The translations under genes were made by a program, and so were the position numbers. The notes under the pieces were generated by a model that was not told the origin of the DNA, searched no databases, and saw only the letters and a list, made by a program, of their open reading frames with translations. This document shows, piece by piece, positions 9,855 to 61,620 of a stretch of 64,000 nucleotides of DNA. This DNA comes from Streptomyces ferrugineus (GTDB taxonomy: Bacteria; Actinomycetota; Actinomycetes; Streptomycetales; Streptomycetaceae): contig NZ_CP063373.1 of assembly GCF_015160855.1 (NCBI RefSeq), positions 7,130,001-7,194,000 of the forward strand. The letters are read 5' to 3'. How positions within the stretch are numbered: position 1 is the first letter of the stretch; every line of letters starts with the position of its first letter.

Positions 9855-9883
9855 TTGACGGAAACATGACTCACTTTTATCTT
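9855..9883 (+). promoter_or_regulatory. Promoter of the GH43 arabinan-degradation genes
   Basis: A -35 TTGACG (9855-9860) and -10 TATCTT (9878-9883) separated by 17 nt, a good housekeeping-type match. Transcription would start near 9890. That rules out an in-frame ATG at 9866 as start codon. An inverted repeat GTTCG-n6-CGAAC (9915-9930) lies in the leader and could be an operator. Confidence 0.6.
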
Positions 9884-9952
9884 CTGTCCCATCACGATCG
9901 GAATCACGAACTGCGTTCGACATTCCGAACTTACGGACAGGGACGGTCTCGT

Positions 9953-11461
9953 ATGCCCCGGATGTCTCACCCCCCACTCAGGAGACGCCGCAGATCGCTG
10001 ATCCTCTGCGTGCTCGCGGCCCTCCTCACCCTGGTGGCCACCACTCAGCCGGCGTCCGCGGCGGACGGCCGCCCGTACACCAACCCGCTGAAGTCGTTCA
10101 AGGGCGCCGACCCGTGGCTCCAGTACCACGACGGCGACTACTACCTGATCACCACGACGTTCACCGGCATCCTCGGCATCCGCAAGTCGCCGACGCTCGC
10201 GGGTCTGGCCACCGCGCCCAACGTCCAGGTGTGGTCGGACACCACGTCGACCCGCAACACCAACTTCTGGGCGCCGGAGATGCATCTGTTCAACGGCCGC
10301 TGGTACGTGTACTACTCGGCCGGCCGGAGCGGCGTCGCCTGCTGCGACTCCCAGCGCACTCATGTGCTGGAGAGCGCCGGGACGGACCCGATGGGGCCGT
10401 ACACCTACAAGGGCTCGCTGACCGGGTCCAATCTCACGCCGGGCGGCTGGCTGATCGACGCGAGTGTGCTGCGGGCGAACAACAGGCTGTATCTGCTGGG
10501 CAGCGGGTTCGTCAACGGCAGTACGCAGAGCCTGGTCATCGCCCCGCTGAGCAACCCCTACACGCTGGCGAGCGACAACTTCACGATCATCTCCAGCCCG
10601 ACCCTGGACTGGGAGCGCTCCGGCAACCCGGTCAACGAGGGCCCCGAGCCGCTCTACCGGGGCGGCCGCACCTTCCTCACGTACTCGGCGAGTTCCTGCC
10701 AGACCGCCGACTACAAGCTCGGACAACTGGAGCTGACCGGCTCCGACCCGCTGGACCCGGCGTCCTGGACCAAGAAGCGGACCCCGGTCTTCCAGCGCAG
10801 TGACGCCAGCGGCGTCTACGGCCCGGGACACAACGGCTTCTTCACCTCCCCCGACGGCACCGAGAACTGGATCGTCTACCACGCCAACTCCGCCTCGAAC
10901 GGCGGCTGCGGCAACGGACGCACCACCCGGGCCCAGGAGTTCACCTGGAACGCCGACGGCACCCCGGACTTCGGCACACCGGCCGGCCTCGGCACCACCC
11001 TTCCCGGCCCGTCCGGCGAGACGGCCGCGACGCCGACGTCGTACACCCTCGTCAACCGGTCCAGCGGCAAGTGCCTGGACGTGAACGGCGGCAACACCGC
11101 CGACGGCACGAACATCTTCCAGTGGACCTGCAACGGCGGGGCCAACCAGAAGTGGAAGGTCGAGGACCTCGGCGACGACACCAACCGACTGGTCAACGTC
11201 GCCACCGGCAAGGTGATGGACACCGCCGAGTGCTCCGCCGCCGACGGCGCCGGGATCCGGCAGTGGTCCTGGCTCAACAACAAGTGCCAGCGCTACCGGC
11301 TCGTGTTCACCGCGAGCGGCGACCACGTCCGGATCGTCAACGAGTCCACCGGCAAGGTCGCCGACGTCGCCAACTGCTCCACCGCGAACGGCACCGACGT
11401 GCGCCAGTGGACCTGGCTGAACAACAACTGCCAGCAGTGGCGCCTCGTCCCCGCGACCTGA
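9953..11461 (+). CDS. Secreted GH43 arabinan endo-1,5-alpha-arabinosidase-like enzyme with ricin-type lectin domain
   Basis: A 502-residue secreted glycosidase. A basic Sec signal (LRRRRRSLILCVLAALLTLV, cleavage after ASA) leads into a five-bladed GH43 domain with the catalytic aspartate in GADPW, the FWAPEMH motif and the acid residue in NEGPE. From about residue 365 a ricin-B/CBM13 domain follows, with QW repeats (FQWTCNGGANQKW, RQWSWLNNKCQ, RQWTWLNNNCQ). It should cut alpha-1,5-arabinan in plant cell walls; the lectin domain likely holds it on polysaccharide. Start ATG at 9953 is chosen because the promoter at 9855-9883 excludes the earlier ATG. A second GH43 gene follows 29 nt later. Confidence 0.88.
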   Translation: MPRMSHPPLRRRRRSLILCVLAALLTLVATTQPASAADGRPYTNPLKSFKGADPWLQYHDGDYYLITTTFTGILGIRKSPTLAGLATAPNVQVWSDTTSTRNTNFWAPEMHLFNGRWYVYYSAGRSGVACCDSQRTHVLESAGTDPMGPYTYKGSLTGSNLTPGGWLIDASVLRANNRLYLLGSGFVNGSTQSLVIAPLSNPYTLASDNFTIISSPTLDWERSGNPVNEGPEPLYRGGRTFLTYSASSCQTADYKLGQLELTGSDPLDPASWTKKRTPVFQRSDASGVYGPGHNGFFTSPDGTENWIVYHANSASNGGCGNGRTTRAQEFTWNADGTPDFGTPAGLGTTLPGPSGETAATPTSYTLVNRSSGKCLDVNGGNTADGTNIFQWTCNGGANQKWKVEDLGDDTNRLVNVATGKVMDTAECSAADGAGIRQWSWLNNKCQRYRLVFTASGDHVRIVNESTGKVADVANCSTANGTDVRQWTWLNNNCQQWRLVPAT

Positions 11462-34628: not shown

Positions 34629-36935
34629 ATGCCCAGCCCGTCCAGACGTACCGTGCTCGCCACCGGATCCGCGCTCGGCGGGACCCTCCTCACCGGCGGA
34701 CCGCCCGCCCCGGCGAGCGCGGCCTCGAACACCGCCCCCTCCGACCCCTGGCGCACCGTCCTCGACGACGCCGACCTCGTGTGGCGACGCATGCCGACGG
34801 CCTGGTACGAGGGCCCCTTCCTCGGCAACGGCTTCCTCGGCTCCGGCGTCTACGCCGAGCCGGGCGCCGAAACCAGCGCCGTGCGCTTCAACGTCCAGCA
34901 CTCCGAGGTCCAGGACCACCGCCCCGAGTTCGGCTCCCTCTTCGGGCTGGCCCGCCTCCCCATCGGCCACTTCACGCTGGAGCCGGCGGGCACGATCACC
35001 GGCCTGGACTGGCGGCTGGGCCTGCGCGACGCCGAGCTGACCGGCACGCTCACCACGGACCGGGGCACGCTCACGCTGCGCGCCCTGGTGCACACCGACC
35101 GCTCGGTGCTGGCGGTCGAGGTCACCCCCAGCCCGGGCGAGCGCGGCTTCCGGTGGGTGTTCCACCCGGCGGAGGCAATCAGTCCCCGGGCGGCCTTCAA
35201 GCCGCTCCCCGACGGCTACCGCGGCAACCCGCCCGCCGAGGTCGCCGAGCACGACGGCGTCTTCGCGGCCGTACAGCCGCTGCTGGCGGGCGGACAGCAC
35301 GTGACGGCGTGGCGGGAGCGGAGCAGGGGCGGGACGCGGACGCTGTACGTCCATGTCGCGCACTCGTTCCCGGGGACGACGGCGCTGGGCCGGGCGCTGC
35401 GGGCCGTACGCCGCGCCGCCCCGCTCCCGTACGCCGCGCTGGCGGTGTCGCACCGGGCCTGGTGGCGCGCCTACTACCGCAAGAGCTTCCTCTCCCTCCC
35501 CGACGCCCGGATGCAGCGCTTCTACTGGATCCAGCTCTACAAGACCGCCTCCGCCGCCCGCCGCGACGCCCCCGTGATGGCGACGAGCGGCCCCTGGCTG
35601 GAACCCACCCCGTGGCCCAACACCTGGTGGAACCTCAACGCACAGCTCGAGTACTGGCTGATCCACGGCTCCAACCACCTCGAACTCGACGCGATCACCA
35701 GGGCGTTGAGCGAGTTCCGGGACAACCTGGCCGAGCAGACGCCGGCCCCGTACCGCACCGACTCCCTCGGCATCCCCCGCACCACGGACCCCCATCTGAT
35801 CAACGGTGCCACCAGCGCCCTCATGGGCTACGGCGTCGGCGTCCCCGGCCAGGACCCGCCCACCCCCGAGGTCGGCAACCTCACCTGGGCGCTGCACAAC
35901 GTCTGGCTCAGCTACCGCCACACGATGGACGAGTCGATCCTCAGGGACGTGCTCTTCCCCCTGCTGCGCAAGGCGGTCGCCTACTACCTGCACTTCCTGG
36001 AGCCGGGCCCGGACGGCAAGCTGCATCTGCCCGCCACCTTCTCCCCGGAGTACGGCGGCAACTCACGGGACTGCAACTACGACCTGATGCTGCTGACGTG
36101 GGGCTGCCGCACACTGCTGGACTCAGCCGGACTCCTCGGCATCGACGACCCGCTGGCGCCGCGCTGGCGCGAGGTCCTGGCCAGACGAGCCCCGTACCCG
36201 ACCGACGAGAACGGCTTCATGATCGGCGCGGACATCCCGTTCGCGAAGTCCCACCGCCACTACTCGCATCTGCTCGCGGTGTACCCGCTGTACGAGCTGA
36301 CCGGCCGGACGCCCGGCGAACGGGCCCTGATCGAGCGGTCGTTGGCGCACTGGGTGGGCTTCGAGGGTGCCCTGCAGGGCTACACCTTCACCGGTGCCGC
36401 GTCGATGTCCGCGCTGCTCGGCAAGGGCGAGGACGCGCTGCGCTACCTGGGCGAGCTGATGTCCCGCTTCGTCCGGCCCAACACCATGTACCAGGAGTCG
36501 GGCCCGGTCATCGAGACACCGCTGTCGGCGGCCCAGTCCCTGCACGACATGGTCTGCCAGTCCTGGGGCGACACGATCCGCGTCTTCCCCGCCGTCCCGG
36601 CCGACTGGGCGGACGTGACGGTGCACGGCTTCCGCACGCAGGGCGCGTTCCTGCTGTCGGCGGTGCGCGAGGGCGGGGCCACCCGCTGGGTGCGGCTGAC
36701 CAGCGAGGCGGGCGCGCCCTGCGTCGTACGGCACGGCATCGCTGGCCCGGTGGAGGTGCGCGATGGCCGGGGCCGGCCGCTGCGGTACTCCGAGGCCGGC
36801 GACGGGGCGATCCGCATCGCCCTGCCGAAGGGCGACTCGGCCCTGATCACCGCCCGGGGCGACCGGCCGGACCTGACGATCGGCCCGGTCCGGCCGAACG
36901 GGGCGGCACCGCGCTGGGGACTGGAGGACGCCTAG
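34629..36935 (+). CDS. Tat-exported GH95-like glycosidase (alpha-L-fucosidase family)
   Basis: A 768-residue exported enzyme. The twin-arginine signal SRRTVLATGSALGGTLL lies at residues 5-21, with cleavage near ASA. The N-terminal beta-sandwich has LVWRRMPTAWYEGPFLGNGF with the GNG motif of GH95. An (alpha/alpha)6 barrel follows, with WPNTWWNLNAQLEYW, LPATFSPEYGG and HRHYSHLLAVYPL. GH95 enzymes hydrolyse alpha-1,2-fucosides or alpha-galactosides; exact specificity needs assay. AGCGGGAGG precedes the ATG. The 3' end overlaps the convergent ogt gene by 4 nt. Confidence 0.83.
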   Translation: MPSPSRRTVLATGSALGGTLLTGGPPAPASAASNTAPSDPWRTVLDDADLVWRRMPTAWYEGPFLGNGFLGSGVYAEPGAETSAVRFNVQHSEVQDHRPEFGSLFGLARLPIGHFTLEPAGTITGLDWRLGLRDAELTGTLTTDRGTLTLRALVHTDRSVLAVEVTPSPGERGFRWVFHPAEAISPRAAFKPLPDGYRGNPPAEVAEHDGVFAAVQPLLAGGQHVTAWRERSRGGTRTLYVHVAHSFPGTTALGRALRAVRRAAPLPYAALAVSHRAWWRAYYRKSFLSLPDARMQRFYWIQLYKTASAARRDAPVMATSGPWLEPTPWPNTWWNLNAQLEYWLIHGSNHLELDAITRALSEFRDNLAEQTPAPYRTDSLGIPRTTDPHLINGATSALMGYGVGVPGQDPPTPEVGNLTWALHNVWLSYRHTMDESILRDVLFPLLRKAVAYYLHFLEPGPDGKLHLPATFSPEYGGNSRDCNYDLMLLTWGCRTLLDSAGLLGIDDPLAPRWREVLARRAPYPTDENGFMIGADIPFAKSHRHYSHLLAVYPLYELTGRTPGERALIERSLAHWVGFEGALQGYTFTGAASMSALLGKGEDALRYLGELMSRFVRPNTMYQESGPVIETPLSAAQSLHDMVCQSWGDTIRVFPAVPADWADVTVHGFRTQGAFLLSAVREGGATRWVRLTSEAGAPCVVRHGIAGPVEVRDGRGRPLRYSEAGDGAIRIALPKGDSALITARGDRPDLTIGPVRPNGAAPRWGLEDA

Positions 36936-40289: not shown

Positions 40290-41771
40290 TTATGACGTGC
40301 AGTCGTGGCCGTTCAGCGTGAAGTCGACGCCCGCCGAGTTCTCGCCCTCCCACGACGCCAGGAACCCGAAGGCCAGCTCGCCGCCCGCGGTGACGGTCTT
40401 GTTGTAGTCGGCGGCGGTGGCGGTGACCCGGGAGCCGTTCTGGGCGAAGCTCGCGTCCCACATCTGGCCGACCTGCTGGCCGTCGCGGAAGGACCAGGCG
40501 ACGCGCCAGTCGTCCAGGGCGCGTTCGGTGGTGACCTTGATGGTGGCCTGGAAGCCGTCGGGCCATTCGTTGACGAGTTCGTAGTCGACCGTGCAGTCCG
40601 CCGATGCGCTCGCGGACGGGTCAGGGTCGTCCTCGCGGGCCGTGGACGACTTGGTGCCCTGGGGCTCGGGGTCGGGGTTCTTCGGCTCGGGCGAGTCGTC
40701 GCCCGAGCCGGAGTCCGAGGGGGCCGGGGAGTCCGCGGAGGGCCGGGCGGCGGAGGCGGTCGGCAGCGTGAAGCCGGGGTCGGCGACCGGCTGGCGGTCG
40801 GAGGGGCCGTCGCCCGCCGTGGCGCCGTCGCCGGTGGAACCGCCCGGCATCATCGAGACCGCCAGGGCGAGTGCGGAGACGAGGACCGCGGCGACGAGGA
40901 GCCCGCTGCGCACGACGCGGGCCTTGTGCGCACCGGGGTTGGGCGGGTCCGCGTCCGTGTCCGCCGGGTCGGGGCGCCCGCCGAGGCGCACCTCGGTGGC
41001 CCGGCGGCGGCGCTCCAGGTAGGCGAGGCCGCCCCAGCCGATCACCCCGCCGGCCAGCGCCCCGGGCAGTCCGCCGCCGTGCAGCCGCAGACAGGCGGCG
41101 GCCTCGGCGCACTGCACACAGGTGGCGAGGTGGCGGGAGAGGTCGCCCGGGGTGTCGGCGCCGGTCGAGCGGGTGACGGCGTCGAGGAGGCGGGCGTAGC
41201 TGCGGCACTGCGCTTCCATCGGCGTGTCGAGGTGGTTGCGCTGGCAGCGGTCCCGGAACAGGCCGCGGACCTGGGCGAGTTCGTCGGCGACGGTGGCCGG
41301 GTCGAGGCCGAGCCGGCGGGCCACCACGGTCTGCGGCAGCGCCTCGACTTCGGCCAGCCACAGCAGGGCCGCGTCGGGTTCCTGCAGGTCGCGCAGTCCG
41401 CGCAGCGCGAGCGGGCGCCGCAGCGGGGGGCCGCTGTAGCGGGCGGCCTTGTCGGAGTTGAGCCACAGGCGCAGATCGGGGTCGAGGTCGTGGCCCCGGC
41501 CGTTCTCCTCCCAGGTGGCCGCCGTGGTGCGTACGGCGGTCAGGAGGAGGGGGATCCGGGGCAGCCGGGCCGGGCGGCGGCCCGCACTGCGGAAGGTCCC
41601 GGTCTCGGCCTCGCGGGCCTCACGTATGCCGGCGGAAAACGCCTCCGCGGCGAGCTGGTTGGCGGCCGAGGAGCCGGCCGTGCACAGATCGGCGTACGAC
41701 AGCACGGCGTCCCAGCACTCGGAGAACAGCGCTGCCTCGGTGGCGTCCTGGGGAGTCGGCAGGTCGGGCAT
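40290..41771 (-). CDS. Sigma-factor-like membrane protein with external CBM2 cellulose-binding domain
   Basis: A 493-residue protein joining three parts. Residues about 10-180 are helical and resemble an ECF sigma factor; 137-180 (LWLAEVEALPQTVVARRLGLD and following) look like region 4. A zinc-finger-like HLATCVQC (H214, C218, C221) follows, as in anti-sigma factors. One membrane segment (289-308) and an ~80-residue Pro/Ser/Asp linker lead to a CBM2 domain (393-493) bracketed by C393 and C491, with tryptophans at 403, 422, 426, 438 and 474. Inside-out topology suggests a polysaccharide sensor. The ATG at 41771 is chosen over an upstream extension. Whether the sigma-like part binds polymerase is unknown. 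Confidence 0.82.
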   Translation of the reverse strand: MPDLPTPQDATEAALFSECWDAVLSYADLCTAGSSAANQLAAEAFSAGIREAREAETGTFRSAGRRPARLPRIPLLLTAVRTTAATWEENGRGHDLDPDLRLWLNSDKAARYSGPPLRRPLALRGLRDLQEPDAALLWLAEVEALPQTVVARRLGLDPATVADELAQVRGLFRDRCQRNHLDTPMEAQCRSYARLLDAVTRSTGADTPGDLSRHLATCVQCAEAAACLRLHGGGLPGALAGGVIGWGGLAYLERRRRATEVRLGGRPDPADTDADPPNPGAHKARVVRSGLLVAAVLVSALALAVSMMPGGSTGDGATAGDGPSDRQPVADPGFTLPTASAARPSADSPAPSDSGSGDDSPEPKNPDPEPQGTKSSTAREDDPDPSASASADCTVDYELVNEWPDGFQATIKVTTERALDDWRVAWSFRDGQQVGQMWDASFAQNGSRVTATAADYNKTVTAGGELAFGFLASWEGENSAGVDFTLNGHDCTS

Positions 41772-41961
41772 GGGTCTCCTGCATCCACATGCGAGGTCAA
41801 CTCGCCATATTGGCAGTGGAGTTGGGGGGAACCTCGCGGCAGGACATGAGCCTTTCACGTGAAGAACACAACTGACAAGCGCCGTGTTCACATGTCATGA
41901 CAGGCCGTCGCGTCCCTGCAACTCCAGCCACTTGTACGGACGCGAGCCCCGTTCGTCTCAA
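41772..41961. other. Gap with nested inverted repeats between the CBM2 protein and radical SAM genes
   Basis: This 190-bp gap holds the start region of the CBM2 protein gene and the end of the radical SAM gene, both leftward. It contains the perfect palindrome TTCACGTGAA (41854-41863) and directly beside it GAACAC (41864-41869) paired with GTGTTC (41884-41889). These could be an operator or a weak terminator. No promoter boxes are convincing. Confidence 0.4.
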
Positions 41962-43281
41962 CTACACCGTCACCTTCTCCTCGGCCGGGAGGCTGTCCAT
42001 GAAGGAGCTCACCGAGAACACCGCGCGGCCGGGGCCGGGCGGGCCGTAGCCGGGGGGCGAGGACAGGCCGAAGTCCTCCATCGTCTGGCGATAGGCCTGC
42101 AGCAGCCGGATGTGGTACTCCAGCGGGGCGCCCTGCGGGTTGGCCTTGCCGAGCGGGGTGGTCGGCTCGGGGCACCAGGTGGTGAAGCGGGGCGTGATGC
42201 CCTGGGACATGAAGAAGCGCAGGCCCTCGGTGGTGGACGCGATGGCCTCGTCGACCGTCTTGAAGCCGAAGGGCTCCGCCATCTCCACGCCCGCGACGAA
42301 GTTGGGGATGACGTTGCGGGCACCGAAGACGTCGGCCGAGTCGAGGATGCGCCTGTGCCACTCGTCGCGGCCGACGTAGCGCTCCTTGCCCGGGCAGTAC
42401 ATCTTGAAGAGGTACTCGTCCCACACCTCGTAGTTGGGGTGGTAGATCTGCACGCCGTAGTCCTTGAACCGCTGCACGTCGTCCTTGGGCAGCGCCTGTG
42501 CGACGACCTTGCCGATCCAGCGGCCGGGGAAGCGCTCCTCGATGGCCTTGGCGTAGTGGCCGTAGAAGTCGGCCTCGTCGCGGCCGGAGACCGTCTTGGT
42601 GATGGCGCCGCCGGTGAGGGTGTAGGCGGTGGAGGCCTTGGCGGTGTCGTACCGGTCGATGATCTCGAGGGCCTCCAGGACCTCCTCGACGTCCTTCACC
42701 CCGGTGTACGGGCGGCCGGCCGCCTTGTGCTGGCGCCAGTTGTGGTTGATGTCGCAGTACTGGCACTCCTCCTTGGCGCCGAAGTACTGGCAGACCCGGA
42801 AGACGGTGAGGTAGATCAGGTAGCCCCACTGGATGGTCGGGGCGACCTCCATCACCGACTTCCCGTTGGCGAGGGTGTGCCGGTAGTACTCCGGCATCGG
42901 CGGCACTCCGACGTCGGCGATCCGCTTGCCGTCGAGGTAGAGGCCGAGCACGCCGTCGTCGCCGGCGGCCACGCGGTACGGCGACGTCGGGTTCACGCGC
43001 ACCGAGACGACGGTGCGGCGCAGGTCGTACGGGCCGCCGGTGAGGATGATCTCCTCCGGCGGGCGGCGCAGCGCGGCCTCGCCGAGCTCGGGCAGGGTGC
43101 CGTGGTCGAAGGAGAAGATGAAGTACGACTTCGGCTTGACCTCACCGCCCTCGTTGTCGCTGAGGGCCGACGGGTCGAAGGCCACTCCGCCCCGGAGCAG
43201 ATCCTCCTTGAAGACGGCTTCACGCGGAACGTGCGGGAACCTCTCCATCAGATCCTCGACCAGTGCGGTGCGGCTGCCCAT
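41962..43281 (-). CDS. Radical SAM protein with noncanonical C-x8-C-x2-C cluster motif
   Basis: A 439-residue enzyme. The likely [4Fe-4S] ligands are C164, C173 and C176 in VCQYFGAKEECQYCDINHNW, a C-x8-C-x2-C spacing instead of the usual C-x3-C-x2-C. Downstream features fit a radical SAM barrel: YTLTGGAITKTV as SAM-binding GGE-like region, and HPNYEVWDEYLFKMYCPGKE. A preceding domain of ~150 residues (RVNPTSPYRVAAGDDGVLGL) is family-specific. I cannot name the reaction. It stands alone, with no precursor peptide or cofactor pathway gene beside it, and is divergent from the TetR gene. Confidence 0.8.
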   Translation of the reverse strand: MGSRTALVEDLMERFPHVPREAVFKEDLLRGGVAFDPSALSDNEGGEVKPKSYFIFSFDHGTLPELGEAALRRPPEEIILTGGPYDLRRTVVSVRVNPTSPYRVAAGDDGVLGLYLDGKRIADVGVPPMPEYYRHTLANGKSVMEVAPTIQWGYLIYLTVFRVCQYFGAKEECQYCDINHNWRQHKAAGRPYTGVKDVEEVLEALEIIDRYDTAKASTAYTLTGGAITKTVSGRDEADFYGHYAKAIEERFPGRWIGKVVAQALPKDDVQRFKDYGVQIYHPNYEVWDEYLFKMYCPGKERYVGRDEWHRRILDSADVFGARNVIPNFVAGVEMAEPFGFKTVDEAIASTTEGLRFFMSQGITPRFTTWCPEPTTPLGKANPQGAPLEYHIRLLQAYRQTMEDFGLSSPPGYGPPGPGRAVFSVSSFMDSLPAEEKVTV

Positions 43282-47175: not shown

Positions 47176-47226
47176 TGCGCCGCGCCGGTGCCGACGACGA
47201 CCCGGCATGACGTGAAGGGACGGGGC

Positions 47227-48528
47227 ATGGCCAGCCCGGCGAAGCGCACATCACGCGACATCCGCACCGCGAACCGCTACGAGGTGCTGCGCCAGATCAT
47301 CGCCGCGTCGCCGACCTCCCGGCAGGAGCTGGCGGCGGCCACCGGGCTGAGCCTGGCCACCGTGGCCACGCTCGTGGGCGAGCTGCTCGACCTCCATATG
47401 ATCACCGAGGTCGGGTTCGAGGACTCGGCCGGGGGCCGCCCGCGGGGGCTCGTGGCGGTCAACGCCTCGGGCGGCGCGTTGATCGGCGTCGACATCGCGG
47501 AGACCTACGTCCATGTCGAGCTGTTCGACCTCGCGTTGAACGTGCTGGCCCGCGCCGAGGAGGACGTCCGCCCCGGCGAGAACCTCCCCGCGCAGATGGT
47601 CGGCCATGTGGCCGCCGCCGTCGGCTCGGTGGTGGCACAGGCCGGCGTCGAGGGCGCTCGGGTGCTCGGCGTGGGCGTGAGCGTGCCGGGGCAGGTGGAC
47701 CGGGCCACCGGCATGTCCGAGTACGCGCCCAACTGGGACTGGCACGACGTGCCGCTGCTCGACCTGCTCACCGAGCACATCGCCTACCCGCTCTACCTGG
47801 ACAACCCGCTGCGCGCCGTCGCGGTGGCCGAGCTGTGGTTCGGGGCCGCGCGCGGGCACGGGGACGCCGTGGTGGTCAACCTCGGGACCGGCGTGGGCGC
47901 CGGGCTCGTCCTGGGCGGTGGGCTGCACCGGGGCGTGAGCAACAGCGCCGGCGAGTGGGGCCACACCACGATCGTGCTGGACGGCCGGCTGTGCCGCTGC
48001 GGCAAGCACGGCTGCGTGGAGGCGTACGTCGGCGCGTCCGGAATCATGCTGAACCTGCGGGAGTTGAGCCCCGACAGCGCGCTGCTGCACCCCGAGGACC
48101 AGACGGCCACCATCGCCGCGCTGGCCGAGGGTCTGCGGGCGCAGGACCCGGTGGCGCTCAAGACGGTCCGGGACACCGCCCGTTACTTGGGCGTCGGCAT
48201 CGCCGACCTGGTCAACCTGCTCAACCCCGAGGTGGTCGTGCTCAGCAGCTGGGTCGCCGCCGCCCTCGGCGAGCCCCTGGTCGCCGAGGTCCGCGAGGCC
48301 GTCGCCCGGCACGCGCTGCCGCGCCCGATGTCCTCCACCGAGATCGTCCTCTCCCCGATCCCCACCGACCCGGCGTGCCTGGGCGCGGCGACGTTCGCGC
48401 TGGAGGGGGCGCTGCAGTCGGTCGGGCAGAAGACCTCGCCGGCCGGCCAGAAGGGCTCGTCGGTGAGGCAGAAGGCGGACAAGCGAACCACCCCGGCGAG
48501 GGGCCGTACCGGACCGCTCTCGGGATGA
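47227..48528 (+). CDS. ROK-family transcriptional regulator
   Basis: A 433-residue regulator. A winged HTH leads (YEVLRQIIAASPTSRQELAA, TGLSLATVATLVGELLDL), then an actin-like ROK domain. The ATP loop reads IGVDIAETYVHVELF. The zinc site is CRCGKHGCVEAY, and GVGAGLVLGGGLHRGVSNSA carries the ROK signature. The EWGH motif lies between them. Catalytic sugar kinase residues are present, though such regulators usually bind sugars without phosphorylating them. It stands upstream of the sugar ABC operon and shares a promoter element with it. ATG 47227 with AAGGGACGG upstream. The last ~45 residues are a lysine-rich tail. Confidence 0.92.
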   Translation: MASPAKRTSRDIRTANRYEVLRQIIAASPTSRQELAAATGLSLATVATLVGELLDLHMITEVGFEDSAGGRPRGLVAVNASGGALIGVDIAETYVHVELFDLALNVLARAEEDVRPGENLPAQMVGHVAAAVGSVVAQAGVEGARVLGVGVSVPGQVDRATGMSEYAPNWDWHDVPLLDLLTEHIAYPLYLDNPLRAVAVAELWFGAARGHGDAVVVNLGTGVGAGLVLGGGLHRGVSNSAGEWGHTTIVLDGRLCRCGKHGCVEAYVGASGIMLNLRELSPDSALLHPEDQTATIAALAEGLRAQDPVALKTVRDTARYLGVGIADLVNLLNPEVVVLSSWVAAALGEPLVAEVREAVARHALPRPMSSTEIVLSPIPTDPACLGAATFALEGALQSVGQKTSPAGQKGSSVRQKADKRTTPARGRTGPLSG

Positions 48529-49014
48529 GGCGGGTCGTGGCGATCGCTGGTGGTCGCGATCTCCCGTACACCCCGGTCGAGGCCGATGGCGCGGCCGGTG
48601 GTGTCCGGCGACTGGACCACGCCCGGCACGATCCCGCCCGCCGGGTGACCTGCCAGGTGCTTCCCCTTGCGCCGAGGCATCCGGCCCGCTGCCGCACCGG
48701 CACCCGGCTCTTGATGTCCGTGATCACCCGCGCACCGCGCCCCGATCGCACGCCGTCGCCCCAACCGCAGAACACGGGTGCGCATGTCCGCGTTTCCGGC
48801 TCCACCGGGCGGCCGCACGCGCACCGGACTGACCCCGTCACGTCCGGTATCCCGAACGTTGCACAACGCTTCGTGCAGACTTCGTCCAACCCCTTGCCGA
48901 AGCCTTAGCCGAAGGTTAACGTCCCGCACCGCAACCCCATTTGAGCCATCTGGCGCTGAGCCGCACCAGCAATGGGCACAGGGCCGCAGCCGCACTCGAG
49001 ACAAGGACGTCAGC
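48529..49014. other. 486-bp gap upstream of the sugar importer operon
   Basis: No gene is apparent; long open frames here look like shadow frames. The right end holds the importer promoter at 48888-48922 and a small inverted repeat CGTTG-CA-CAACG at 48857-48868. I see nothing specific in 48530-48850. Confidence 0.5.
48878..48922 (+). promoter_or_regulatory. Promoter of the sugar ABC importer / beta-galactosidase operon
   Basis: A -35 TTGCCG (48894-48899) and -10 TAACGT (48917-48922) have a 17-nt spacer. The -35 sits in AACCCCTTGCCGAAG (48888-48902), 13 of 15 bases identical to the element at the ROK promoter. GACTTCGT (48878-48885) also recurs, but 2 rather than 14 nt upstream of the shared element. 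Two CCTT(A)GCCGAAG repeats follow in tandem. The ROK protein is the likely binder. Confidence 0.65.
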
Positions 49015-50271
49015 ATGTCGGCATCGAGCAACACCAACTGGGACCGCCGAACCGTTCTGCGGGCCGCGATGGGCCTGGCCGCCGCCGGCGGTCTGGCCGC
49101 GTGCGGCGGCAACACCGGCCGGAGCAGCTCCGGCGACACCCTCGTGCAGATGTTCCACGCGTATGGCGAGGCGGGCACCGAGCAGGCCATCAAGCGGTAC
49201 GCGAAGGCGTACAAGGAAGCCAACGTGACCACGCAGTGGATCACCAGCGCGGACTTCGAGAGCAAGCTGTTCTCGTCCCTGCTCACCGACAACGCGCCGG
49301 ATCTCTTCGAGTTCCACCCGCAGATCCAGATGGTCAAGAGCGGCCAGGTGGCGGACCTGACCGACATCATCGACCCGGTCAAGGACGACTTCAATCCGGC
49401 CGACATCAAGTCGCACACGGTCGACGGGAAGATATACGGCGTCCGGATGATCGACGACCCGCAGTTCTTCTTCTACCGCAAGTCGATGCTGGAGAAGGCC
49501 AAGGTCGAGGTGCCCACCACGCTCGACGAGCTGATGGAGGCCGCCGCCAAGCTCACCACCGGCAAGGTCAAGGGCCTGTACATGGGCAACGACCTGCACA
49601 GCGTCAACGACACGTTGATCTGGTCGGCCGGCGCCCAGCACCTCGACGAGAAGAACCAGATCGCCTACCACACGGACGGCGTCGTCGAGGGCCTGAAGAA
49701 GATGCGCCAGCTGTTCACCAGCGGCGACCTTCTCCTCGGCGCCCCGACCGAGTCCTGGGACCCGTCCTCGTTCAACCAGGGCCTGTGCGCCATCCAGTTC
49801 TGCGGCATGTGGGCGATGCCGGCGATCCAGGACGCGCTCGGCGACGACTGGGGGGTCTTCCCCTTCCCGAAGGTCACGGACTCCGGCAAGCAGTCGGTCT
49901 ACAACGGCGGCTGGTCGATGTTCGTCAACGCCAAGGGCAAGAACGTCGACGCGGCCAAGGAGTACGTCAAGTGGCTGTGGATCGACCAGAAGGAGTACCA
50001 GGAGGACTGGGCCACCTCCTACGGCTTCCACATCCCGCCGCGCGCCTCGCTCGCGGAGTCGGCCACCAAGCTCAAGTCGGGCAACGCCGCTGAGGGCGTC
50101 AGGCTCTTCAACGAGTTCGGGCACTTCGACAACATCGGCTGGACCCAGGCCATGCGCACCGCCTTCGAGGATGTCTTCGCCAACTGCGTCCGCAAGAACA
50201 TGGACCCGGAGAAGGCTCTCGACAGGTGCGACACGGCCGTCAACCGCGAGCTGAAGAAGCTGTTCGGTTAG
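49015..50271 (+). CDS. Sugar ABC transporter substrate-binding lipoprotein
   Basis: A 418-residue exported binding protein. The N-terminus has a twin arginine (DRRTVLRAAMG) and a lipobox LAAC at about residue 27, so it is a Tat lipoprotein held on the outer face of the membrane. The rest is the extracellular solute-binding protein family 1 fold of malto- and galacto-oligosaccharide importers (APDLFEFHPQIQMVKSGQVA, GLCAIQFCGMWAMPAI, YNGGWSMFVNAKGKN). With beta-galactosidase last in the operon, beta-galactosides are the likely cargo. ATG at 49015; ribosome site AAGGACG. Confidence 0.92.
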   Translation: MSASSNTNWDRRTVLRAAMGLAAAGGLAACGGNTGRSSSGDTLVQMFHAYGEAGTEQAIKRYAKAYKEANVTTQWITSADFESKLFSSLLTDNAPDLFEFHPQIQMVKSGQVADLTDIIDPVKDDFNPADIKSHTVDGKIYGVRMIDDPQFFFYRKSMLEKAKVEVPTTLDELMEAAAKLTTGKVKGLYMGNDLHSVNDTLIWSAGAQHLDEKNQIAYHTDGVVEGLKKMRQLFTSGDLLLGAPTESWDPSSFNQGLCAIQFCGMWAMPAIQDALGDDWGVFPFPKVTDSGKQSVYNGGWSMFVNAKGKNVDAAKEYVKWLWIDQKEYQEDWATSYGFHIPPRASLAESATKLKSGNAAEGVRLFNEFGHFDNIGWTQAMRTAFEDVFANCVRKNMDPEKALDRCDTAVNRELKKLFG

Positions 50272-50291
50272 GCCGTAGGACGGACCACGCC

Positions 50292-51257
50292 ATGTCGACG
50301 ACCACACCGCGCGACCTCGCGCGCCCCGCCTCGGCGAAGGCCTCACCGGCCAAGCCGCGGCGGGGGCTGCGGGGCAGCTCCACCTTCAACTTCTGGCTGT
50401 TCACCGGGCCGTTCCTGATCGGTCTGGCGATCTTCGTCTACGCGCCGATCCTGTGGAGCCTCTGGCTCAGCTTCTTCGAGGCCCGCTTCACCGTCACACC
50501 CGACAAGTTCATCGGGTTCGACAACTACACGTACATGCTGACGAACGACGACTTCGTCGGCTCGCTCGGCACCTTCACCGTCTTCGCCGCGTTCATCGTG
50601 CCCACCACCTGGGCACTCTCGCTGGGCCTGGCCCTGCTGGTGAACCGGATGCGCTTCATGCGGGCGTTCTTCCGCTCGGTGTTCTTCCTGCCCACCGCCG
50701 TCAGCTATGTCGCCGCCTCGCTGATCTGGAAGATGTCCATCTTCAGCGGAGTCCGCTTCGGCCTGATGAACACCGTCCTCGGCTGGTTCGGGATCGACAA
50801 CATCGCCTGGCTGATCGACCCCAACCCGCCCTGGTACTGGCTGGTCATCGTGACCGCCCGGCTGTGGCTGCAGGCCGGCTTCTTCATGATCCTGTTCATC
50901 GCGGCGCTGCAGAACATCCCGGACGAGCTGTACGAGGCCGCCGCCATCGACGGCGCCAAGCCGGGCTGGCAGACCTTCCGGTACATCACCCTGCCCCAGC
51001 TGCGTGCCACGTCCACCGCGGTGATCCTGCTGCTGCTCATCGCCGCCTACCAGGCCTTCGACGAGTTCTACAACCTGCTGTCGAAGACCACCTGGGGCCG
51101 CCCGCCCCTCGTCGAGCTGTACTACAAAGCCCTGGGCGAGAGCCAGGACTACGGCGCCGGCAGCGCGGGAGCGCTCATCCTGACCGTGCTGATCTGTGCC
51201 GTGACCCTGCTCCAGGGCAAGATCATGGGCTTTGGAAGGGGGGACGAGTCCAAGTGA
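50292..51257 (+). CDS. Sugar ABC transporter permease (MalF type)
   Basis: A 321-residue permease with six membrane segments. The EAA loop that contacts the ATPase reads YEAAAIDGAKPGWQTFRYIT. It starts 20 nt after the binding protein gene, and its stop overlaps the GTG of the next permease (GTGA). As in many Streptomyces sugar importers, no ATPase gene is in the operon; a shared MsiK-type ATPase encoded elsewhere probably serves it. Confidence 0.92.
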   Translation: MSTTTPRDLARPASAKASPAKPRRGLRGSSTFNFWLFTGPFLIGLAIFVYAPILWSLWLSFFEARFTVTPDKFIGFDNYTYMLTNDDFVGSLGTFTVFAAFIVPTTWALSLGLALLVNRMRFMRAFFRSVFFLPTAVSYVAASLIWKMSIFSGVRFGLMNTVLGWFGIDNIAWLIDPNPPWYWLVIVTARLWLQAGFFMILFIAALQNIPDELYEAAAIDGAKPGWQTFRYITLPQLRATSTAVILLLLIAAYQAFDEFYNLLSKTTWGRPPLVELYYKALGESQDYGAGSAGALILTVLICAVTLLQGKIMGFGRGDESK

Positions 51258-52150: not shown

Positions 52151-55048
<2,898 letters not shown>

Positions 55049-60043: not shown

Positions 60044-60300
60044 GAAACGCCTCCCGGGTTGCCACTGCCTTGCAGCGGCTGCCTTCTACGGCGCTGTTGC
60101 GCCGTCTGTGGAGGATCAAGGCGAAACATGAACATTGAACGAGCGACGCATGGCCGTCGGGTGCCACCGACGCGGCAGAACTCCCCGTCCCTCACTGTTT
60201 CCCCAACGGCCCTTGTACGTCACCCTGGTTGACATCGAACCTGAGCAACGCTCACCTTCAGCGTTCACCCTCTTCGTCATCCATCGGAGACTCCCCCACC
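60044..60300. promoter_or_regulatory. Divergent gap between the two secreted phosphoesterase genes
   Basis: A TTGACA (60229-60234) is a good -35 for the rightward gene, but the TCACCT 17 nt on is a poor -10. Three heptamers GCTCACC (60250), GTTCACC (60263) and GTCATCC (60276) recur every 13 bp. They recall PHO-box heptamers, but those are spaced 11 bp. Confidence 0.35.
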
Positions 60301-61620
60301 ATGAGAAGACTCATCGGCACGCTCGCGGCGGCCGCGCTGGCCGTCACCGGCCTCACCGCCACCGCGGCCACGCCCGCGACGGCCGCCACCTCCGGGTCCT
60401 TCAACGTCCTGACGTACAACATCGCGGGCCTCCCGCTCGGCCTCGGCGACAGCGACCCCGAGACGAACACGCCGCTCATCGGACAGCGGCTGGCCCCGTA
60501 CGACATCGTCAACGTCCAGGAGGACTTCAACTACCACGCCTCGCTGTACGCCAACGACACCCACCCGCACCGCACGGCGACGAGCGGCGGCGCGGCCTTC
60601 GGTGACGGTCTGAACACCCTCTCCGACCACTCCTTCGAGGACTTCCAGCGGGTGAAGTGGAACCAGTGCACCGGCACGAACTGCCTCACCCCGAAGGGCT
60701 TCTCGCTGGCCCGGGTCCGCCTCGCCGAGGGCGTCTTCGTGGACCTCTACAACGTGCACACCAACGCGGACTCCGACGACGCCGCGCTCGCCGCCCGCCG
60801 CGCCAACATCGAGCAGCTGTCGGACTTCATCCAGGCGAACTCCGCCGGCAACGCGGTGATCGTCATGGGCGACACGAACACGCGGTACACGCGCGCCGGC
60901 GACAACATCCGCACGCTCGTTTCCGACAACGGTCTCAAAGACCCGTGGGTCGACCTGGTCAAGGGCGGCACCCCGCCCGCGCAGGGCAGCGACCCCGTGC
61001 TCTGCGACAACGCCGCCCCGGCGAACGACTGCGAGGTCGTCGACAAGGTCCTCTACCGCGGCAGCAACCTCGTCTCCCTGAACGCCACCCGCTACAACAA
61101 CGACTGGAAGTCGTTCCTCCGCTCCGACGGCAAGCACCTCTCCGACCACTTCCCGCACGCGGTCGACTTCTCGTACACCGTCAACTCCGCCCTCAAGGCG
61201 AGCGACTTCTGGGGCGGCCCACACGGCACGGCGTTCAACGACGCCGACGATCTGCCGGGAACCGTCTCCCCCCGCACGCTGACGCTGCGCGGCGCCTCCC
61301 GCCTGGACGCGGTCTCCCTGACCCACGACGGCGGTACGACGCTCAGCCACGGCGGCACGGGCGGCACGGCCACGTCCCTGACCCTCGCCTCCGGCGAGCA
61401 CCTCACGTCCGTCAAGCTGACGCAGGGTCAGAAGGACGGCCGCACAAGGATCTTCTCGGCCGCCTTCACCACGGACAAGGGCCGCACCCTGACCTCCGGC
61501 ACGGCAACGTCCGCCACGAAGACCTTCACAGCCCCGTCCGGCTGGCAGATCGTCGGCTTCACGGGACGGTCCGGCGACGAGATCGACAAGCTGGGCGTGC
61601 TGTACGCGCCGATCCGCTGA
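60301..61620 (+). CDS. Secreted EEP-family phosphodiesterase (sphingomyelinase-like) with jacalin-like domain
   Basis: A 439-residue secreted protein. The Sec signal is RRLIGTLAAAALAVTGLTAT with cleavage near ATA-AT. The endonuclease/exonuclease/phosphatase domain follows with VLTYNIAGLP, VQEDFNYH, DLYNVHTNAD, VMGDTNTRYT and LSDHFPHA, the metal and catalytic residues of the DNase I-like fold. From about residue 300 a jacalin-like beta-prism domain (WGGPHGTAFNDADDLPG, RIFSAAFTTDKGR, GWQIVGFTGRSGDEIDKLGV) should bind carbohydrate or membrane. Bacterial sphingomyelinase or phospholipase activity is likely; a nuclease is the alternative. ATG at 60301. Confidence 0.86.
   Translation: MRRLIGTLAAAALAVTGLTATAATPATAATSGSFNVLTYNIAGLPLGLGDSDPETNTPLIGQRLAPYDIVNVQEDFNYHASLYANDTHPHRTATSGGAAFGDGLNTLSDHSFEDFQRVKWNQCTGTNCLTPKGFSLARVRLAEGVFVDLYNVHTNADSDDAALAARRANIEQLSDFIQANSAGNAVIVMGDTNTRYTRAGDNIRTLVSDNGLKDPWVDLVKGGTPPAQGSDPVLCDNAAPANDCEVVDKVLYRGSNLVSLNATRYNNDWKSFLRSDGKHLSDHFPHAVDFSYTVNSALKASDFWGGPHGTAFNDADDLPGTVSPRTLTLRGASRLDAVSLTHDGGTTLSHGGTGGTATSLTLASGEHLTSVKLTQGQKDGRTRIFSAAFTTDKGRTLTSGTATSATKTFTAPSGWQIVGFTGRSGDEIDKLGVLYAPIR

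Follow-up and report, generated by a model that had tools for sequence, protein, structure and literature searches.

The window analysed here comprises 64,000 nucleotides of the Streptomyces ferrugineus chromosome (NZ_CP063373.1, positions 7,130,001 to 7,194,000), and the gene under study encodes a 493-amino acid protein (Table 1; G000:C1:7170290-7171771 of the 9.96 Mb chromosome). From the N-terminus, the protein consists of a helical head (residues 10-262), one membrane helix, an 83-residue disordered linker, and a family 2 carbohydrate-binding module (CBM2, residues 392-493). The ATG at 41771 is the likely start, since all seven opening residues (MPDLPTP) show at least 90% conservation across 120 homologues and the DNA immediately 5' of it is also conserved. 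The first-pass annotation, which left the strand unstated, had given the correct coordinates and had described a sensor-like domain, an anchor, and a sigma-like module within a single chain. This layout was borne out, as were a membrane segment at about residues 289-308, a disordered linker of about 80 residues, and an H-x3-C-x2-C motif. Protein names such as "cellulose-binding domain-containing protein" conceal the regulatory-type head.

Table 1 Features of the gene, its upstream region, and carbohydrate-related genes of the window
Feature	Position	Strand	Basis
Whole gene, 493 aa	40290..41771	minus	ATG at 41771, stop 40290-40292
Sigma region-2-like domain, residues 10-95, region 2.2 acidic pair lost	41487..41744	minus	profiles, alignments, predicted fold
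Sigma region-4-like helix-turn-helix domain, residues 119-182	41226..41417	minus	profiles, structural neighbours
Zinc anti-sigma (ZAS, class I) domain, residues 187-228; presumed ligands C189, H214, C218, C221	41088..41213	minus	alignments
Helix pair 234-244/248-262, W246-G-G-x-x-Y251, taken as anti-sigma helix-4 position	40986..41072	minus	alignment, dN/dS
Single transmembrane helix, residues 288-308	40848..40910	minus	hydropathy, structure prediction
Disordered extracytoplasmic linker, residues 309-391	40599..40847	minus	composition, pLDDT, dN/dS
CBM2, residues 392-493, face residues W403, W438, Y456	40293..40598	minus	Pfam, 1exg alignment
Bipartite promoter-like element CTTGTY-N14-YGTGMRAR (here CTTGTC..CGTGAAAG), start 108 bp before ATG	41852..41879	minus	conserved upstream DNA
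GH43 with ricin lectin	9866-11461	plus	
GH95	34629-36935	plus	
GH2 beta-galactosidase	52178-55048	plus	
ROK gene, solute-binding protein, permease	47188-51257		

The cytoplasmic half is a homologue of the ECF52 sigma factors (ECF, extracytoplasmic function) by profile, tree, and predicted fold. In a profile-profile comparison, residues 8-250 matched ECF52 over 233 columns (Prob 98.2, E 3.2e-14, 28% identity), and a 49-row profile built from the degenerate family alone, to which the protein belongs (see below), matched structures of the ECF factor SigE along some 190 positions (E 3e-4). The full-length structure search was filled by matches to carbohydrate-binding modules, and a separate model of the cytoplasmic part was therefore built and used as the query. 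In the model of residues 1-262 (predicted local distance difference test, pLDDT, 89.9; predicted template modelling score, pTM, 0.88), the sigma2-like, sigma4-like, and zinc anti-sigma (ZAS) domains are predicted to form one compact unit. The first 29 rows of its Foldseek search were sigma factors or PhyR, and region-4 structures were among its structural neighbours. The ECF52 profile match, the tree, the degenerate-family profile, and Foldseek together rule out a chance resemblance to sigma factors. Single-sequence Pfam and TIGR02937 searches of the 493-aa protein gave no match to sigma region 2, the Pfam region-4 match was below threshold (12.2 bits, cut-off 25.7) alongside a sub-threshold MarR_2 match at 15.8, and the zf-HC2 model did not match the ZAS domain. 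The sigma similarity of the N-terminal part, for which hidden Markov model searches and structure prediction had been proposed as checks, is upheld by the ECF52 profile and the sigma-type fold neighbours. The earlier term "sigma-like" was right as to ancestry but incomplete, as the head joins sigma2-like and sigma4-like domains to a class I ZAS domain, with the sigma half degenerate and the zinc site intact.

What the sigma half has lost lies in region 2.2, where the eight rows of the ECF52 alignment block read D/E-D-L-x-x-E. Position 39 is acidic in all eight and in 20 of 20 compared ECF-type sequences of the same genome (drawn from the best 30 of 70 sigma-region-2 matches, with ten group 1-4-like sigmas dropped by eye). 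Among the 34 degenerate rows just one is acidic there, as are 8 of the 120 close homologues, and both acidic residues of region 2.2 occur together in none of either set (0/34 and 0/120). Curated sigma models had no match in L002 or the 493-aa protein, while TIGR02937 (cut-off 42.9) passes in L077, an ECF52 protein of the same genome with Sigma70_r2 and NPCBM domains (64.7), and in L099, an intact sigma-lectin protein (77.5). In excerpts of PMC7406223, regions 2.1 and 2.2 are described as binding the clamp helices of beta', with helix 4 of class I anti-sigma factors docking at the same place and helix 1 docking on sigma4. The sequence argues against polymerase binding by the head, which most likely forms no holoenzyme, since the sampled clade has lost the acidic pair of the region 2.2 face. 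An early suspicion that the sigma-like part is a decoy or scaffold gains support from this degeneracy.

All 120 homologues and all 34 degenerate rows keep the zinc ligands C189, H214, C218, and C221, with C189 presumed to be the fourth ligand beside the other three. The helix pair carrying W246-G-G-x-x-Y251 was equated with anti-sigma helix 4 and is presumably the docking helix. Ratios of nonsynonymous to synonymous substitution rates (dN/dS), taken from 303 of 3240 pairs at 80-95% identity, were 0.21 for the sigma2-like, 0.26 for the sigma4-like, and 0.21 for the ZAS domain (0.17-0.26 across the sigma and ZAS parts). The lowest value, 0.055, fell in the helix-4-position region; the linker gave 0.74 and the CBM2 0.46. 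Purifying selection across the sigma2-like, sigma4-like, ZAS, and helix-4 regions indicates that the head is not decaying and has a function.

In trees of 45 and 59 rows, the 34 degenerate rows form one clade (support 96/99), and the fork joining it to intact sigma-lectin proteins lies within ECF52 (support 90/96). The 493-aa protein is nested among ECF52 rows, and the outgroup of ECF53-like rows sits on a very long branch. Ectodomains in the degenerate clade are of the CBM2 or ricin type, the latter tested with Pfam in four paralogues and judged by eye in the other rows. The CBM2-bearing rows form one subgroup (99/99, 45-row tree), and the ricin-type rows are not a single group. In the simplest history the sigma signature was lost once, after which paralogues with differing lectins spread. 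A CBM2 member is present in about 61 of 150 genomes of the genus (best match E <=3.0e-57); G099 is only 37% identical, and the gene in G129 is cut at a contig end. Species with the gene include S. coeruleorubidus ATCC 13740 (locus L204) and S. viridochromogenes DSM 40736 (L234). At the family level, 82 of 121 genomes matched at 1e-8, with many weak matches of ECF52 strength. Other genera of the family carry head homologues, at 44-48% identity in genus g204. A scan of 296 genomes of the phylum at E 1e-6 found matches in eight, seven from the same genus and one to an intact ECF52-like protein (L113), and no degenerate member outside the genus. Among the genomes sampled, the degenerate clade was found only in Streptomycetaceae.

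The N-terminus is probably inside the cell. The six best hydropathy windows all fall in the membrane segment at residues 290-308 (mean 2.45), and the W-G-G-x-x-Y region reaches a maximum of 1.19. The linker is 89% P/S/T/G/A/D/E/K with pLDDT mostly below 50, and its 15 prolines in 83 residues make it, by eye, less proline-rich than the extension of L077. Pfam PF00553 (CBM2) matches residues 393-491 at E 1.4e-26. The bracketing cysteines 393 and 491 and the aromatic residues W403, W438, and Y456 are kept in 120 of 120 homologues; the aromatics, which we take to be the binding face, align with 1exg, where the third position is Trp. The C-terminal CBM2 with bracketing cysteines and surface tryptophans reported in the first-pass annotation is thus confirmed. 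With its family-2 fold, it takes the place of NPCBM as the external carbohydrate-binding domain and probably binds polysaccharide.

Upstream of the gene lies a bipartite element that may be a promoter or operator. Among 80 named Streptomyces loci, 79 carry GCTTGTCAGTTGTG-N7-Y-GTGAAA upstream (in one of them the first block differs at a single position), with the element starting 106-132 bp ahead of the start codon, and the remaining locus has a spacer one base shorter. CTTGTY-N14-YGTGMRAR is matched exactly at 79 of the 80. Ricin paralogues have a related element, CTTGTT-N14-YGTGCRAR, and distant CBM2 members retain CTTGTCAG and CGTGAAAG without TTGTG between them. A narrower first pattern matched only the site at 41852-41879 and one other. 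The pattern CTTGTY-N14-YGTGMRAR has five exact matches in the genome, four of them ahead of family genes. The fifth was rejected as a regulon member, as it sits inside the first part of a gene predicted to encode a sugar ABC ATPase (function judged by eye). Across 14 family-bearing genomes, 47 of 55 exact matches lay 80-347 bp before an aligned family-gene head on the same strand (28 of 35 matches were ahead of family genes in a subset of eight family-bearing genomes), and 47 of 66 family genes carried an exact match. Reversed as a control, the pattern matched 29 times across these 14 genomes, and the eight unplaced matches therefore do not exceed the number expected by chance. In eight genomes lacking the family (head matches no better than 1.3e-9), the pattern matched three times in total and its reverse nine times.

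The element was built from family upstream DNA, including loci of some genomes later scanned, and its presence at family genes is thus partly by construction, but its rarity elsewhere is not. Independent of the construction are 18 matches before paralogue genes in G103, G139, G140, G108, G109, G100, and G048. Two observations count against an exclusive association: no family gene follows 8 of the 55 matches, and an exact match is missing from 19 of the 66 family genes, these not being L008-types alone (G086 has one mismatch). Four L008-type loci had no match within three mismatches, the intact sister L099 had none within two, and L077 is likewise without the element. The palindrome TTCACGTGAA, with a copy upstream of the gene at 41854-41863, was rejected as a conserved signal, since its core TCACGTGA is missing in the remaining 27 of the 28 upstream regions compared. 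The palindrome occurs 20 times in the genome, with 18 copies at G000:C1:142216-315849 near one chromosome end, and this cluster at 142-316 kb looks like the operator of a local gene cluster.

The gene is flanked by rsgA and a variant radical-SAM gene. The latter (41962-43281, minus strand; NF045502, 168 bits), whose product had no Pfam match up to 1e-5, lies upstream in 80 of 80 loci at a median of 95% identity, and rsgA adjoins in 58 of 80; the comparison covered 80 of 224 relatives, some without full flanks. With these as the immediate neighbours, synteny gives no pointer to cellulose. Twenty window genes were scanned, of which four encode GH43, GH95, or GH2 glycoside hydrolases or a solute-binding protein, in addition to the ROK and permease genes. 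The window had been called rich in plant-polysaccharide genes, and several are indeed present, but this is weak evidence given the rsgA and radical-SAM flanks and the scarcity of GH95, which just 6 of the 80 related loci contain. A better link comes from GH48, which tends to occur in the same genomes: it was present in 53 of 61 genomes with the gene versus 39 of 89 without (Fisher p 6.7e-8, not phylogeny-corrected). A sigma gene is not a regular neighbour, as tblastn with 30 sigma fragments matched only 2 of 80 loci and the window contains no PF04542 match. PF04542 genes near the paralogues L005 and L008 were rejected as cognate sigmas, being by eye of the SnoaL-type ECF and SigB types and not shared. 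Elsewhere in the window, ARAGORN found no tRNA, and 60229-61620 (plus strand) encodes a jacalin-like lectin fused to an endonuclease/exonuclease/phosphatase domain.

We give an even chance to the reading that the protein is an ECF52-derived membrane receptor for cellulose, or a similar polysaccharide, whose pseudo-sigma head acts by protein contact instead of reading promoters as a sigma factor does. Computation shows the ancestry, the domain layout, the lost sigma signature, the retained zinc site, purifying selection, and the shared upstream element; how the protein lies in the membrane, its binding of polysaccharide, its lack of sigma activity, any signalling, and the identity of its partner are inferences. 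Outside the cell, the CBM2 on its 80-residue tether would bind polysaccharide. This binding, or cleavage of the tether or membrane helix, would alter or free the head, which could then compete for proteins that partner the cell's genuine ECF52-type sigma/anti-sigma pairs. The broader proposal, of a Streptomycetaceae-specific lectin-receptor family whose pseudo-sigma heads rewire sigma/anti-sigma pairs by mimicry, much of it under a private element and a dedicated regulator, is tentative and rather doubtful. The placement of most element matches (47 of 55) before family genes could instead reflect a working divergent ECF sigma that is cleaved free, reads CTTGTY-N14-YGTGMRAR, and drives its own gene and paralogues as a closed, self-regulating set. 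Purifying selection on the sigma-like domains is consistent with this, as are the group-specific promoters described for many ECF groups in excerpts of PMC7406223. However, such a sigma would have to function without the region 2.2 acidic pair and unrecognized by curated sigma models, and the element is unmatched at the L008-type loci and L099, making it unlikely.

The protein may also be a surface adhesin or anchor in which the CBM2 holds hyphae to cellulose and the sigma/anti-sigma remnant serves as a folded cytoplasmic plug. A long disordered tether carrying a CBM2 whose face residues are conserved, the GH48 co-occurrence, and the lost sigma signatures would all suit this role, but dN/dS values of about 0.2 and 0.055 in the head, against 0.46 in the CBM2, are odd for a mere plug, and lectin paralogues have the same head and often the same upstream element. 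We regard this as improbable. Invariant zinc ligands, the strong constraint on the helix-4 region, and an intact ECF52 in the same genome point to another role, that of a trans-acting anti-sigma whose zinc half captures a different sigma of the cell, such as L077, with the pseudo-sigma as a displaceable cap. In that case the cis sigma-like domain would compete, and a sigma gene would be expected nearby more regularly than the tblastn and PF04542 searches indicate, so that this role is very unlikely. If the receptor reading is correct, a sigma factor has been domesticated into a non-transcriptional signalling part, and both the loss of sigma function and the gain of a new one are traceable, as intact ECF52 proteins and an intact sister group occur in the same genus. 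A cellulose receptor may explain how some Streptomyces notice solid cellulose, and the 493-aa protein may use a route not yet described to sense plant material or hold on to it. The upstream element defines a small, directly testable regulatory set and provides a handle towards its regulator.

Neither the degenerate clade nor the upstream element was found described in a literature search of open-licence papers, which included PMC10766802 and PMC11256431. The novelty lies in a clade with a degenerate sigma part and an upstream element largely its own; the one-chain architecture is already known. Excerpts of PMC5826349 and PMC8999054 describe ECF52, with type member SCO4117 of S. coelicolor, as joining sigma, zinc finger, membrane helix, and carbohydrate-binding domain in one chain, and propose activation by proteolytic cleavage. 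The 493-aa protein resembles SCO4117 in its one-chain plan, extended linker, homology over the whole cytoplasmic part, and occurrence in Actinobacteria. It has the zinc finger, the membrane helix following it, a carbohydrate-binding domain, and the tree placement of ECF52, but not sigma region 2; L077 and 120 listed relatives keep Sigma70_r2 and carry NPCBM, whereas here the sigma signatures are lost and the external domain is CBM2. The same genome also encodes an ECF sigma and a CAP domain in one protein, separated by a hydrophobic segment (L076, G000 5976000-5980500), and L075 and L074 look like additional sigma-membrane-ectodomain fusions.

The intact sigma-lectin proteins (L099, P0241, and relatives), the sister group (own support 80/54), have the same head layout, with zinc ligands and the W/F...Y motif at matching positions in the 14 that were hand-picked from 120 proteins for the 59-row tree. 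They differ in having the acidic pair (108 of 120 by a loose regular expression), and many are named sigma-70 family. ECF52-like sigmas with ricin-type lectin ectodomains (L099, P0241-P0360) are common in Streptomyces, often annotated as just "sigma-70 family". The clostridial RsgI/SigI system, in which a membrane anti-sigma carries an external carbohydrate-binding module, was the parallel named initially. ECF52 is closer, as the same fusion has been published for SCO4117. The external module and the membrane-bound anti-sigma system are common to both, but RsgI and SigI are two separate proteins and RsgI has its own domain type, which is not among the three Pfam families listed up to E 10 for the 493-aa protein; a separate partner sigma gene alongside was likewise not found in the window (PF04542) or by tblastn of the 80 loci. 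In PhyR, which works with NepR, a sigma-like domain acts by protein contact as a sigma mimic, as the head described here would. PhyR has a receiver domain, for which the 493-aa protein had no Pfam match, whereas the 493-aa protein is membrane-bound and fused to its own anti-sigma domain.
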